Assembly: GCF_000973105.1 (NCBI RefSeq)
Contig: NC_015844.1
Span: forward strand, 1,174,501-1,238,500
DNA from: Zobellia galactanivorans
GTDB lineage: Bacteria > Bacteroidota > Bacteroidia > Flavobacteriales > Flavobacteriaceae
DNA length: 64,000 nt
Direction of reading: 5' to 3'
Positions 4,349-33,034 of this stretch are shown one piece after another. Made by a program: the position numbers and the translations under genes. Position 1 is the stretch's first letter; each line of letters opens with the position of its first letter. The notes under the pieces are model-generated. The model had not been told where the DNA came from. It was given only the letters and a program-made list of their open reading frames with translations, and ran no database searches.

Positions 4349-4421
4349 CGCGGGGTAGAGCAGTAGGTAGCTCGTCGGGCTCATAACCCGAAGGTCGCTG
4401 GTTCGAGTCCAGTCCCCGCTA
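4349..4421 (+). tRNA. Initiator tRNA-fMet (anticodon CAT)
   Basis: A complete cloverleaf can be folded: acceptor strand CGCGGGG (4349-4355) with CCCCGC/T at the 3' side, D stem GAGC/GCTC, anticodon stem TCGGG/CCCGA around loop CTCATAA, and T arm with TTCGAGT. The unpaired first position (C1 against T72) and the three consecutive G:C pairs in the anticodon stem are initiator tRNA hallmarks. The CCA end is not encoded (CTA follows). A terminator lies directly downstream. The 3' part is duplicated 28 kb away, marking it as an integration target. Confidence 0.93.
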
Positions 4422-4496
4422 CTAATTAAGAAGCCATTTATCTGAACAATCAGATAAATGGCTTTTTTTCTTCCCGACATTTTTTCGGTTTTCAGG
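4380..4496 (+). repeat. Proximal att-like direct repeat (tRNA 3' part, terminator, flank)
   Basis: This 117-bp segment runs from the tRNA anticodon loop (CTCATAACCC) through the terminator to ttttcagg. It recurs in the same orientation and the same length at 32769-32885 with five substitutions. The proximal copy completes the functional tRNA; the distal copy lacks the 5' half. This is the expected pattern of attL/attR left by an element that integrated at the tRNA 3' end, although no integrase gene is visible. Confidence 0.8.
4433..4469 (+). terminator. Intrinsic terminator of tRNA-fMet
   Basis: A perfect 13-bp stem, gccatttatctga (4433-4445) with tcagataaatggc (4450-4462), has a 4-nt loop and is followed by seven T residues. 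The same terminator is copied exactly at the distal repeat near 32.8 kb. Confidence 0.93.
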
Positions 4497-4537
4497 GATC
4501 ATGACCAATTGTTGTGGGATCATGACCAATTGTTGTG
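4496..4537 (+). repeat. Tandem 21-bp repeat at the left IS end
   Basis: Two perfect adjacent copies of a 21-bp sequence start at 4496 and 4517. A third copy lies beyond the right end of the insertion sequence at 5941-5961. The motif is the probable terminal inverted repeat of the element, so the extra copies look like traces of a neighbouring IS copy or of aberrant transposition. Confidence 0.8.
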
Positions 4538-4538
4538 T

Positions 4539-5525
4539 TTATGCAAAAATTGTCGTCAATCTGTAAAGGAAGAATTCTACATTTTTCACCCCTCTGAACT
4601 GTGCCCTGAACGCTTTAATTTTTGCGTTGAAGGATTCCGCAGAAGCATTCGTACTTCTATTTATAAAATAGTTTAGGATCGACCTATAATTGAGTGATAT
4701 CGTATTGGCAATGGTATTGAAGGCCCTAAAGCCTGTGTTCTGTACATCTTTGTACCAATGTGCCAGCTTTGTATATGCAGATTGTATAGAAGCTGCTGTA
4801 TTGAATATGTTCCTGAGCCCCTGCACAAGATCGAAGGCGACCTTTATATCGGGATATTGGGCGAACAATATTTTACTTCTTTCGGCTTGGTTCTGCGTCC
4901 AATTGTTTGGTGATTTGTAAAGTAGGTACCTACTTCTGGCTAAGAGTTGTTTTCTGGTATCCCCATTGCTAAACTCTTTTGGGACGAATGTCCCGTTCTT
5001 TGCCCTGGCCTCTTTAATCTGTTGGTTCTCTTGGTCTATGGCCTCCCATCGGTGTTTGATTCGGATGTCCTGAAGGGCCTCCAGTGCCAGTTTTTGCACA
5101 TGGAACCTGTCCGTTACCTGTATCGCCTTTGGGAAGCAGGTCTTGGCGATGGTCTTCATGGAGTTGGCCATATCCAGAGTGATTTCTTTGACCATGGCCC
5201 TTTTCTTGGCCGATATCTTTAACAGCTGCTCTATAATCGGCCCCACCTTGGTACCGGAGAATATGGCCACTATGGCCCCTTTCTTGCCCTTGGCTTTTTT
5301 ATTGGTGATTATGGTGTAGAGTTCTCCTTTGGAGAGTGCTGTTTCGTCAATGGACAGATTAGGCCCTATGTTTTCGGGGAATATAAGCCATTGCTTGGCA
5401 TGGGATTTCTCCTTCCACTGCCTGAAATCGCTTAGATAATCCCTAAACTGTCGCTGTAGTTTTTTGCCGTTTACCCCATAGAATTGGCCGATGGTATGAC
5501 AGTCATTTGCTTTAGTACTGACCAA
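4539..5525 (-). CDS. ISAon1 family transposase, catalytic protein (ISL3 DDE)
   Basis: A 328-aa transposase catalytic domain. Probable DDE residues are D60 (NLSIDETALSKG), D116 (ITLDMANSM) and E297 (NASAESFNAKIKAF). VTDRFHVQKLALEALQDIR is typical of the ISL3 DDE domain. The listed start is TTG; the frame overlaps the end of the upstream N-terminal-region gene by 14 bp and lies in the +1 frame relative to it. Expression may therefore use the TTG start by translational coupling or a +1 shift. The catalytic frame is intact, so the element could be active. Confidence 0.88.
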   Translation of the reverse strand: MVSTKANDCHTIGQFYGVNGKKLQRQFRDYLSDFRQWKEKSHAKQWLIFPENIGPNLSIDETALSKGELYTIITNKKAKGKKGAIVAIFSGTKVGPIIEQLLKISAKKRAMVKEITLDMANSMKTIAKTCFPKAIQVTDRFHVQKLALEALQDIRIKHRWEAIDQENQQIKEARAKNGTFVPKEFSNGDTRKQLLARSRYLLYKSPNNWTQNQAERSKILFAQYPDIKVAFDLVQGLRNIFNTAASIQSAYTKLAHWYKDVQNTGFRAFNTIANTISLNYRSILNYFINRSTNASAESFNAKIKAFRAQFRGVKNVEFFLYRLTTIFA

Positions 5526-5865
5526 GTACTTTTAAAAAAGCAGCGAACTCTACGGTCATACGAGTTCCCTGGGCCACCAACTCCCAATCTCTTTGCACGG
5601 CTTGCCCCGTGGCCTTGTCCAGCCAACGGCGGCGCTTAATGTGGAGAAAGACCGACTTTCCCCGCAATGGAAAGTCCTGGACGACGATCTCCTTATGAAA
5701 TCCATGGCCTATTAAAATGCGGTGTTTTTCCTCTTTAGGGGTATCCTCTTTTTCTTCAAAATATAAATGAAGCATACCATCTTCAGTTTCATGGGAAACT
5801 AGTTTAAAGTGGGTTAGTAAAAGTTCCGGCAGTATAAGCTTTAATAGGTCGATAGATAATTCCAA
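5512..5865 (-). CDS. ISAon1 family transposase N-terminal region protein
   Basis: A 117-aa protein encoded just upstream of the catalytic transposase ORF and overlapping it by 14 bp. It contains basic stretches (FLHIKRRRWLD, GHGFHKEIVVQDFPLRGKS) that resemble the N-terminal DNA-binding part of ISL3 transposases, which in this Bacteroidota subgroup is encoded separately. It begins ATG at 5865, close inside the right inverted repeat. Function in transposition is inferred from position and family. Confidence 0.8.
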   Translation of the reverse strand: MELSIDLLKLILPELLLTHFKLVSHETEDGMLHLYFEEKEDTPKEEKHRILIGHGFHKEIVVQDFPLRGKSVFLHIKRRRWLDKATGQAVQRDWELVAQGTRMTVEFAAFLKVLGQY

Positions 5866-31798: not shown

Positions 31799-31825
31799 AT
31801 CAGTTAGCCTTTCAATAATTAAAAC

Positions 31826-31840
31826 GTGTAAAAATTACAC
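31826..31840. promoter_or_regulatory. Palindrome in the divergent fecR / sigma promoter region
   Basis: A perfect inverted repeat GTGTAA-AAA-TTACAC (31826-31840) lies in the 114-bp gap between the divergent fecR and sigma genes. Its size and symmetry suit a dimeric regulator or the sigma-dependent promoter region. This is inference from position and symmetry only. Confidence 0.4.
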
Positions 31841-31912
31841 TACCCTTGTTTTTTTGATAACATTTTTTTTATATTGTCAAATATTAAGCTACAACTTTCC
31901 ATAATTCTCATA

Positions 31913-32512
31913 ATGAAAATTAGTTTTATCAACGATATTGCCTTTATTAAAAGCCTAAAAAAAGGAAACTCAAAAGCTTTTACTTACTTAGTAGAACAGT
32001 ACCATCATAGACTATGCAACTATGCATATGGACTAGTCAACGATAAGGATGTATCTGAAGATATAGTACAAAATGTGTTTATTAAAATTTGGAAAAAGCG
32101 CAAAGCACTGAAAGATGATATTAATTTGAAAAATTACCTATATAAGTCTACATATAACGAGTTCATAGACCATTACAGGAAAATACGTCCTGTTTTTTCA
32201 TTAGAAAAAATACATATTGAATCCCTCTCTCTCTTTGTGGAAGAAGACTCTGGAAATTCATTGGAAAAATTGCTTCTTGAAGTAAAAAAAGAAATTGAAA
32301 ATCTCCCTCCAAAATGTAAACAAGCTTTTTTATTAAGTAAACAGGAAGGTCTTACCAATATAGAAATCTCAGAATACTTGGGTATTTCAATAAAATCGGT
32401 GGAAGGCCACATTACAAAAGCCTTTTCGATTTTACGAAAAACCTTAGATAAAAAATCTCACGGCATTTTCCTTTTACTCTTTAGATCTAATCTGGTTTCA
32501 AAAACGACGTAA
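31913..32512 (+). CDS. ECF-type RNA polymerase sigma factor (FecI-like)
   Basis: About 199 aa from the ATG at 31913; the longer frame to 31874 would need a TTG start. Region 2 is at about 15-80 (AFTYLVEQYHHRLCNYAYGLVND, VSEDIVQNVFIKIWKKRKALKDD). Region 4 is at about 125-180 (LPPKCKQAFLLSKQEGLTNIEISEYLGISIKSVEGHI). It is divergent from the fecR-susC-susD-sulfatase genes that it probably controls. It is the last gene before the distal tRNA repeat. Confidence 0.92.
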   Translation: MKISFINDIAFIKSLKKGNSKAFTYLVEQYHHRLCNYAYGLVNDKDVSEDIVQNVFIKIWKKRKALKDDINLKNYLYKSTYNEFIDHYRKIRPVFSLEKIHIESLSLFVEEDSGNSLEKLLLEVKKEIENLPPKCKQAFLLSKQEGLTNIEISEYLGISIKSVEGHITKAFSILRKTLDKKSHGIFLLLFRSNLVSKTT

Positions 32513-33034
32513 TTATCTATTTGTAGTAAGAGAAGGTTTTGCAACTATATCTCATGAGTCTAAACAGTTAAAAAATTGTCTTGCTACTTTGTACTTCATT
32601 TTTTTTGCCCCCTCCTACTAAAAGCTCCAAACAAACGACTTCTGAAAAGAATTTACTGAAAATCAGATAATTGTTTACTTTAAAACCAAAGAAAGAATTA
32701 TACCGACATAGCAAACAGTTTTAAAGTATTTATAGATAATAGTGCTAAAATTCGAGAATTTTGTCAAACTCACAACCCAAAGGTCGCTGGTTCGAGTCCA
32801 GTCCCCACTACTAATTAAGAAGCCATTTATCTGAACAATCAGATAAATGGCTTTTTTTCTTCCCGAATTTTTTTCGGTTTTCAGGATAAAGACCAAGGTC
32901 GGTGCCGCCAAAATTAGAAGCAGCACCGACCCACACAGTCTAAAAATTAAAAAATTCAGGTATTTCCCTAAGCTATGTACGGTATTCTATCAATCATTAA
33001 TTGCTTTGTCAGTTTTTATATAGGGTGTAGGATA
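32513..33034. other. Island-end intergenic region
   Basis: About 520 bp holding the distal att-like repeat (32769-32885) and, right after it, ataaagac (32886-32893), the same 8 bp that flank the right end of the insertion sequence at 5933-5940. The minus-strand frame across the tRNA remnant is not considered a gene. Confidence 0.6.
32769..32885 (+). repeat. Distal att-like copy of the tRNA-fMet 3' part and terminator
   Basis: A 117-bp direct repeat of 4380-4496 with five substitutions, three of them in the tRNA part (including one in the anticodon loop segment and one in the acceptor strand). It carries the complete T arm, acceptor 3' strand and the exact terminator hairpin, but no tRNA 5' half upstream. 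It is therefore a remnant and not a working tRNA. It marks the probable right boundary of the island and separates it from the laminarin locus. Confidence 0.85.

Follow-up and report, generated by a model that had tools for sequence, protein, structure and literature searches.

How did a 28-kb block with two SusCD loci come to lie between an intact initiator tRNA gene and a displaced copy of the 3' part of that gene in Zobellia galactanivorans? The window analysed here comprises 64,000 nucleotides of this genome (NC_015844.1, positions 1,174,501 to 1,238,500), and an earlier note, made from its letters alone, had read the block as a domesticated island targeted to the tRNA. The observation is real, and the reading as a tRNA-targeted element is supported, be it with corrections. 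We consider it highly probable (roughly 87%) that the segment is what is left, now immobile, of an integrative element from a Flavobacteriaceae family whose tyrosine recombinase would recombine within the anticodon loop of the initiator tRNA gene. The integrative origin claimed for the island holds, but the block is not a lone island. It is better described as an immobilised slot in a larger array at the initiator tRNA, built by an integrase clade associated with CAU tRNAs, and the lamC genes belong to another slot.

The starting point is the repeat pair listed in Table 1. The CAU tRNA is the single tRNA gene of the window, and the two repeat copies, both 117 nt long and 96% identical, form its longest two-copy repeat family. 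Direct inspection of both places bore out the description in the earlier note of an intact tRNA, a 3'-only copy and five mismatches, of which three fall within the 43 positions of the tRNA part and two within the 74 of the flank. A search of the whole source genome (G000; 5.52 Mb in one contig) with the tRNA repeat at E 1e-3 returned these two copies and two further rows, which represent the palindromic terminator on the opposite strand. A chance origin of the repeat was rejected in view of its length and of the orthologue of the right copy in another species. The block thus starts with intact tDNA and ends with a displaced fragment of equal orientation, as in Islander-type islands. Moreover, a profile of the copies recovered degenerate remnants in the window and at the same place in G007, the nearest genome (nhmmer E 0.0029 and 0.0033). 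The lamC genes therefore constitute a slot of their own, and the 28-kb block is the tRNA-proximal slot of the array.

Table 1. Features of the window and their positions (position 1 is the first letter of the window).
Feature	Position	Strand	Basis or remark
Conserved left chromosomal anchor, three genes, next to tRNA-fMet	283..4296	-	78-100% amino acid identity (78% for a piece cut off at the stretch end); same position in 8 other genus genomes
Initiator tRNA (CAU), full-length, presumed integration target	4349..4422	+	ARAGORN; sole full copy in genome
Left repeat copy: tRNA 3' part from anticodon loop, terminator, flank	4380..4496	+	
ISL3-type insertion sequence (IS): DDE_Tnp_ISL3 open reading frame (ORF) 4539-5525, further ORF 5512-5865 without Pfam match	4517..5932	-	Pfam
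ATAAAGAC plus 36-bp piece resembling IS left end	5933..5976	+	89% to IS end
Decayed gene (end approximate), related to 316-aa ORF in left part of G006 and G002 slots	6027..6862	+	
Cargo block A: GDPD, ECF sigma, FecR, SusC, SusD, phosphodiesterase	7367..16899	+	Pfam
Cargo block B: four sulfatases, 660-aa protein, SusD, SusC, FecR	17429..32512	-	Pfam
ECF sigma of cargo block B	31874-32512	+	
Element right-end motif AATAGTGCTAAAATTCG.., abutting remnant	32738..32768	+	comparison with other ends
Right repeat copy: displaced tRNA-fMet 3' remnant, terminator, flank	32769..32885	+	orthologous copy in G007
Next slot: GH16-CBM6 (lamC), GH64-CBM6 and others	33035..45879	-	Pfam
Third, degenerate tRNA-fMet 3' remnant (tRNA nt 51-74 plus 3)	46514..46540	+	profile of copies, nhmmer
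PhyH/sulfatase/GH20/NAGLU/SusD set (SusC from 63406 on)	51508..64000	-	Pfam; fMet-slot cargo in G005 and G006

A comparison of nine Zobellia genomes (G000 to G008, one per species) revealed that the arrangement is widespread in the genus. Copies consisting of only the 3' part of tRNA-fMet occur in seven of the nine (G000, G001, G002, G004, G005, G006 and G007). G002 carries four, three of them off the tRNA contig, G006 has three on the tRNA contig, the tRNA and copies being spaced 34-38 kb apart, the copy of G004 is degenerate and that of G007 lies off the tRNA contig. The point at which identity with the tRNA begins is nearly constant: nt 31/32 in 9 of the 12 copies and nt 27 in one, the remaining two being blurred by decay. 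The anticodon loop, CTCATAA, opens with nt 32. Behind the tRNA, all eight other genomes have DNA unlike that of the window, although in G007 only 262 bp are visible before the contig ends. In G007 the right copy is followed by the lamC genes, five of which have orthologues there with 86-94% amino acid identity, but the cargo on the left side is another. The same site with different cargo, which the earlier note had named as a check, is consequently a common situation in the genus.

On the right-hand side, conserved gene order with G003, G004 and G006 begins at a BrkB-family gene (window coordinate 113870), which lies 50 kb past the window. Between the tRNA and this anchor there are approximately 109 kb in G000, 55 kb in G003, 75 kb in G004 and 149 kb in G006. 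Since G007 and G000 share genes from 108972 on, the variable part in G000 may end slightly before the BrkB anchor.

Integrases are present at the corresponding place in the relatives. Behind the tRNA or a remnant we found ORFs for tyrosine recombinases of 495 aa in G001 and of 439 and 482 aa in G006. All three match PF00589 and Phage_int_SAM, the 439-aa protein remaining below the PF00589 cut-off, and the genes start at the end of the terminator T-run, with ATG or, in case of the 482-aa ORF, with TTG. A fourth one, that of G002, contains a single in-frame stop. In G004 and G005 the tRNA is followed by an N-terminal piece, as are copies in G001 and G002; two more pieces (G003, G002) have no recognised tRNA copy adjacent to them. 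The integrase gene in G001 and G006 is followed by a second gene of 249-259 aa, with relatives (tblastn) in 9 of 15 regions from other genera. Some elements have at their far end the same short repeats, such as GCATACGA, as are present in the first codons of the integrase (noted by eye, without statistics), and these may represent putative arm sites. The claim that the locus displays the footprint of an attachment (att) site of a tRNA-targeted element is thus supported by the copies in the genus, the differing cargo and the integrases at the site.

The region behind tRNA-fMet in G008 (L039-L040) is of another kind. Its integrase is a different one (375 aa, PF00589 E 3e-41), accompanied by some 30 mostly small ORFs, and no second tRNA copy was found in the 46 kb up to the contig end; the region is either phage-like or another element.

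The recombinase family extends well beyond the genus. Relatives at E 1e-20 were present in 21 of 120 family genomes, at 30 loci (39 match rows). Zobellia, Kriegella, Arenibacter, Maribacter, Polaribacter, Cellulophaga and Lacinutrix are among the genera that have the integrase. Directly upstream of 26 of the 30 loci lies an intact CAU tRNA on the same strand (15 initiator tRNAs and 11 of 75 nt, a class in which elongator Met and Ile2 were not separated), two loci have tRNA-Leu, and two a partial CAU tRNA, one of these calls being a 10-base string only. In a partly overlapping set of 36 titled loci, the intact CAU tRNAs were 20 initiator and four of 75 nt; the rest comprised five partial initiator and two partial 75-nt CAU tRNAs, one tRNA-Leu, one locus with none, and three that start at a contig end. 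A CAU tRNA or its remnant was accordingly seen at 28 of the 30 and at 31 of the 36 loci, and in the titled loci the matched integrase part begins 28-49 bp downstream of the intact CAU tRNAs. Among the loci seen, this clade targets the initiator tRNA, regarded in the earlier note as an uncommon target, more often than any other.

Fifteen regions of other genera were chosen for the presence of the integrase; twelve have an initiator tRNA, two a 75-nt tRNA and one no tRNA. Seven of the twelve initiator regions (G035, G036, G046, G047, G068, G120, G122) have a second copy of 43-51 bp at a distance of 20-74 kb, which is followed by a second integrase in G047 and G120 and by an integrase piece in G035. 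No second copy was found in the fetched stretch of G116, G115, G105, G056 or the two 75-nt regions, and G075 yielded a match of 14 bp only. Twenty further stretches of the family were picked because their tRNA is nearly identical to that of the window (a tRNA search over 299 genomes served only to locate tRNA positions). A left-anchor gene was matched in 19 of them, in two cases on the other side of the tRNA, and the integrase family in five; the BrkB anchor had no match in the 20 stretches, and other right-side genes gave weak matches (27-46%) in four, of which the one in G234 (44%) lies directly behind the tRNA. Many of these stretches may be empty sites of their own that cannot be matched to the Zobellia array.

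In a tree of 65 integrases the users of initiator and of other CAU tRNAs are intermixed. The number of label changes was 11 against a mean of 19.5 after shuffling, thus the target labels cluster, yet neither forms one clade; several branches are long and the deep joins of the tree are unsure. Searches in phage and plasmid collections yielded one and two distant matches, respectively, and a search in solved structures a single one, XerA (E 0.0024). Two side observations concern target choice. The very similar integrases of L084 and L085 reside in different genomes, one at a 75-nt CAU tRNA and the other at the initiator tRNA, which to judge from the sequences would be a target exchange within a close pair. 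In addition, Zobellia russellii and Z. amurskyensis have close integrase relatives at a 75-nt CAU tRNA (L158) or an 18-bp match to one (L159, L161), which suggests a second hotspot in the genus.

The window block itself is devoid of such a gene. None of the 18 ORFs scanned between the repeat copies had a Pfam integrase match, the four PF00589 matches in the genome all lie outside the window, and the fMet integrase family had no match in G000 at E 1e-20, nor any at E 1e-3 in the 144 kb that begin with the window. The earlier statement that the interval lacks an integrase was therefore correct, and the proposed domestication is supported in so far as it implies integrase loss. A family integrase acting in trans from the same genome was rejected for want of a match in G000. 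The flank shared by the two copies, CTTCCCGA..TTTTCAGG, occupies the place of the integrase starts in other slots; it has no start codon and the frame evidence is weak, and it might be suggested that it is an integrase leftover.

At the place where the gene would be expected lies an ISL3-type IS, for which three further genome copies were listed at 100% identity. The left junction has been rearranged by this IS: a 21-bp copy of the IS end is found directly outside it (4496-4516), and there is no clean target duplication around it (4496-5976). The 36-mer on its right occurs once in the genome, allowing up to 3 mismatches. Moreover, ATAAAGAC is the 8-bp sequence that follows the right copy (32886-32893) and it recurs at 5933-5940, immediately right of the IS. 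At the right end of the block, the 100 bp upstream of the remnant at 32769 score above all 200 letter shuffles in comparison with four of nine other element ends (G002, G005 and two of G006).

The cargo is shared between the species. The presence of two SusCD loci was confirmed as two ECF-FecR-SusC-SusD sets plus sulfatases (Pfam), and the SusC-SusD pairs with regulators and enzymes qualify the cargo as polysaccharide utilisation loci (PULs). Window positions 6729-16909 (10.2 kb) are 89.9% identical at the nucleotide level to slot 3 of G006, against a backbone identity to this genome of 80.9% on the left (4.3 kb) and 73.4% on the right (29 kb). The decayed gene at the left end has 81.5-82% nucleotide identity over 0.7 kb to the G006 and G002 slots (76-78% amino acid identity for ORF 6154-6549), and the end of the block (29854-32845) matches a G002 slot, at its right end, with 75% identity and across the att copy. 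The block is thus composed of pieces that are found in slots of two other species. Further to the right, positions 51.5-71 kb match G006 with 77% identity; the gene set of 51508-63385 extends past the window to 71306 and has 69-91% amino acid identity to slot cargo of G005 and G006. The G+C content is 37.1% for the 28-kb block, 43.8% and 44.9% for its left and right flanks, and 40.7% for 46.5-108.9 kb.

SusC-like or SusD-like genes were found in 10 of 11 Zobellia slots or array parts (a tally made without the G008 region, G003, G007 and one G002 contig), the remaining one being the lamC slot with GH16 and GH64. Slot 1 of G001 includes GH32, an MFS transporter, a hybrid sensor and an Eco57I-type methylase among 10 proteins scanned. 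Eight elements of other genera were labelled by phmmer with window queries: SusC and SusD were detected in G068 and G122, SusC-like genes only in G046 and none in five, the absence of a PUL label in other genera being weak evidence. The G035 and G036 elements encode type I restriction subunits, and two scanned G120 proteins had no or a weak match. The relaxase family PF03432, the only relaxase family searched and with a model that matched just 1 of 14 control genomes, was found in 3 of 16 genomes and never within an fMet array; the coupling protein PF02534 was found in 7 of 16, likewise never within an array.

These data are consistent with the following scenario. Integration through a crossover in the anticodon loop would leave an intact tRNA, made up of the 5' half of the host and the 3' half of the element, followed by the terminator of the element and the start of its integrase gene. 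The old 3' half, its terminator and everything behind would be pushed downstream. Repeated integration would then give rise to a tandem array, to be read outward from the tRNA, with the proximal slot as latest arrival, while older slots would lose their integrases and att copies. In G000 the proximal slot would have lost its integrase at the ISL3-type IS, in an array that holds several SusCD loci and the lamC genes. Such elements would presumably also excise, and the route between cells may be transformation, transduction or mobilisation in trans; non-conjugative routes are proposed because neither PF03432 nor PF02534 was found in the arrays.

Several observations weigh against this scenario. 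The tRNA-side and displaced flanks agree at 72 of 74 positions, whereas most flanks within one genome differ. G003 and G008 have no 3'-only copy (search with tRNA plus flank), the integrase behind the tRNA in G008 does not match the family query, and the block lacks any integrase or integrase piece detectable by tblastn. Five of the nine other element ends are unlike the right end of the window block in the shuffle comparison, the G+C content of the lamC slot (44.2%) is like that of the backbone, and the SusC-SusD stretch is possibly conserved above the average of the DNA, in which case the identity contrast with G006 would carry less weight. Finally, an uninterrupted site is absent from the nine genus genomes, and the tRNA running straight into lamC with a single copy, which the earlier note had named as support, was not found among them. 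The similarity of the flanks in particular would fit an entry of the block as a chunk of the array of a neighbour, comprising cargo, element right end, remnant, the same flank and lamC. Homologous recombination would have taken place at lamC for the right side and at the IS for the left. The resident chromosome would in that case already have had the tRNA, the same flank and lamC; the right junction would be an inherited att site and the left one an IS scar. The two flanks indeed resemble each other more than either resembles the G007 copy (7 and 9 differences), the homology on the left stops at the IS ends, the 8 bp behind the right copy reappear right of the IS, the cargo homology to G006 and G002 starts only at 6027, right of the IS material, and the genome has no family integrase. 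However, a clean target duplication at the IS flanks is missing, and of 20 flank pairs from one genome each, three agree to 93-97%, namely that of the window, copies 3 and 4 of G006 (95%) and the tRNA and one copy of G002 (93%), thus two elements with alike flanks can come together. Arrival of an element with this type of flank, followed by the IS and deletion of the integrase next to it, explains the data equally well and stands as the simple reading. We consider the recombination route, the odds of which were lowered by these flank pairs, rather unlikely for the block.

The other two explanations fare worse. An ancestral tandem duplication of tRNA-fMet, with one copy losing its 5' half, would look alike if there were a single extra copy in one genome, and the repeat does span terminator and flank. 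This ordinary duplication, which the earlier note had named as an alternative, is nevertheless disfavoured by the element-end sequence upstream of the remnant, common to four junctions in three other genomes, by the start at nt 31/32 and by the cargo between the copies, which differs per genome; we regard it as very improbable. A hotspot of homologous PUL exchange between conserved anchors, with the tRNA copies as passengers, would account for the mosaic of cargo between species and slots and for the several slots with no or a partial integrase. It is difficult to reconcile with the intact integrases beside att copies and the two-ended elements in the genus and in other genera, and seems improbable.

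Some further features of the window and of one relative deserve mention. The gene names era/AGCS for the left anchor and lamC (GH16-CBM6) were taken from the earlier note. The 660-aa protein within the sulfatase block (18991-20973) has no Pfam match at E 1e-3. A CBM6-type coding repeat of 300 nt occurs three times, in three proteins (33335-33634, 34908-35207 and 49982-50281), the second and third copies being 91% and 61% identical to the first. The G047 element (L107-L110, composite 1001-75414) contains approximately 99 short ORFs separated by a 176-nt repeat, of which L108 has 16 copies, most of them 70-85% identical and several ending in TACACAAACCGTT; the layout resembles that of an integron-type cassette array, here lodged within an fMet element.

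Mobile PULs are known from the integrative and conjugative elements (ICEs) of gut Bacteroides, which are conjugative. In contrast, the Zobellia array piles up several PUL slots behind a single tRNA, and the conjugation genes looked for (PF03432, PF02534) were not found in it. Among marine Bacteroidota, PUL transfer has to our knowledge often been inferred from trees and seldom been tied to a vehicle. The transfer of carrageenan genes, for instance, was inferred with no vehicle named in the part of the source at hand (PMC5698469). Our literature search, by titles and abstract openings and with the subscription literature mostly outside its scope, gave no description of this array. Tycheposons, reportedly known from Prochlorococcus, offer a parallel. 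The accessible part of a study on Methylophilaceae describes tycheposon-like islands at tRNA-Met (PMC10872708), which likewise have a tRNA at one border, a tyrosine recombinase and a large metabolic cargo; the phylum and cargo differ, and the likeness noted here is one of layout. ICECleSHZ29 of Chryseobacterium also targets a CAU tRNA (tRNA-Met-CAT), a target conserved in Flavobacteriaceae and Weeksellaceae according to the portion of the report available (PMC12561888), but it is conjugative and has a 17-bp repeat at the very 3' end, whereas the fMet family has repeats of 43-51 bp from the anticodon loop and no PF03432/PF02534 match. The 10K genomic island of Riemerella anatipestifer, where in the available text the integrase alone integrates and excises (PMC6764341), similarly has a tyrosine integrase adjoining a tRNA, but that is tRNA-Arg, and the island is 10 kb with other cargo. 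There is also a close correspondence in design with the Islander islands as described in the accessible part of that work (PMC4383910): ends formed by tDNA and fragment, a tyrosine integrase at the tDNA in the relatives, sublocation in the anticodon loop and tandem arrays. Against 3919 islands, Islander lists 125 tandems with at least two members and 4 with at least three (PMC4383910); under its rule of an own integrase and an own fragment for each, the three slots in a row in G006 would count as a tandem of two. Unlike those islands, the window copy lacks the integrase that is present inside the elements of G001, G006 and other genera, and because none was found in the interval we file it as a remnant, not as a full Islander member.

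The site is now defined, and an integrase clade and elements with both ends are known, which makes the integration, excision and transfer of PULs assayable. The lamC genes can be assigned to a separate slot with a tRNA remnant on either side, and the order of the array might be readable as the order of acquisition. More broadly, the odds appear about even that we are dealing with a dedicated non-conjugative shuttle of the Flavobacteriaceae at initiator and other CAU tRNAs, a slow cassette system in which every new capture would go in beside the tRNA and displace the older ones along the array, whose order would then record the acquisition history. Its members would have an integrase gene starting at the tRNA terminator, a second small gene behind it, and polysaccharide loci or defence systems as cargo. 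If so, this shuttle would be a main route by which loci for algal polysaccharides move between Zobellia species.

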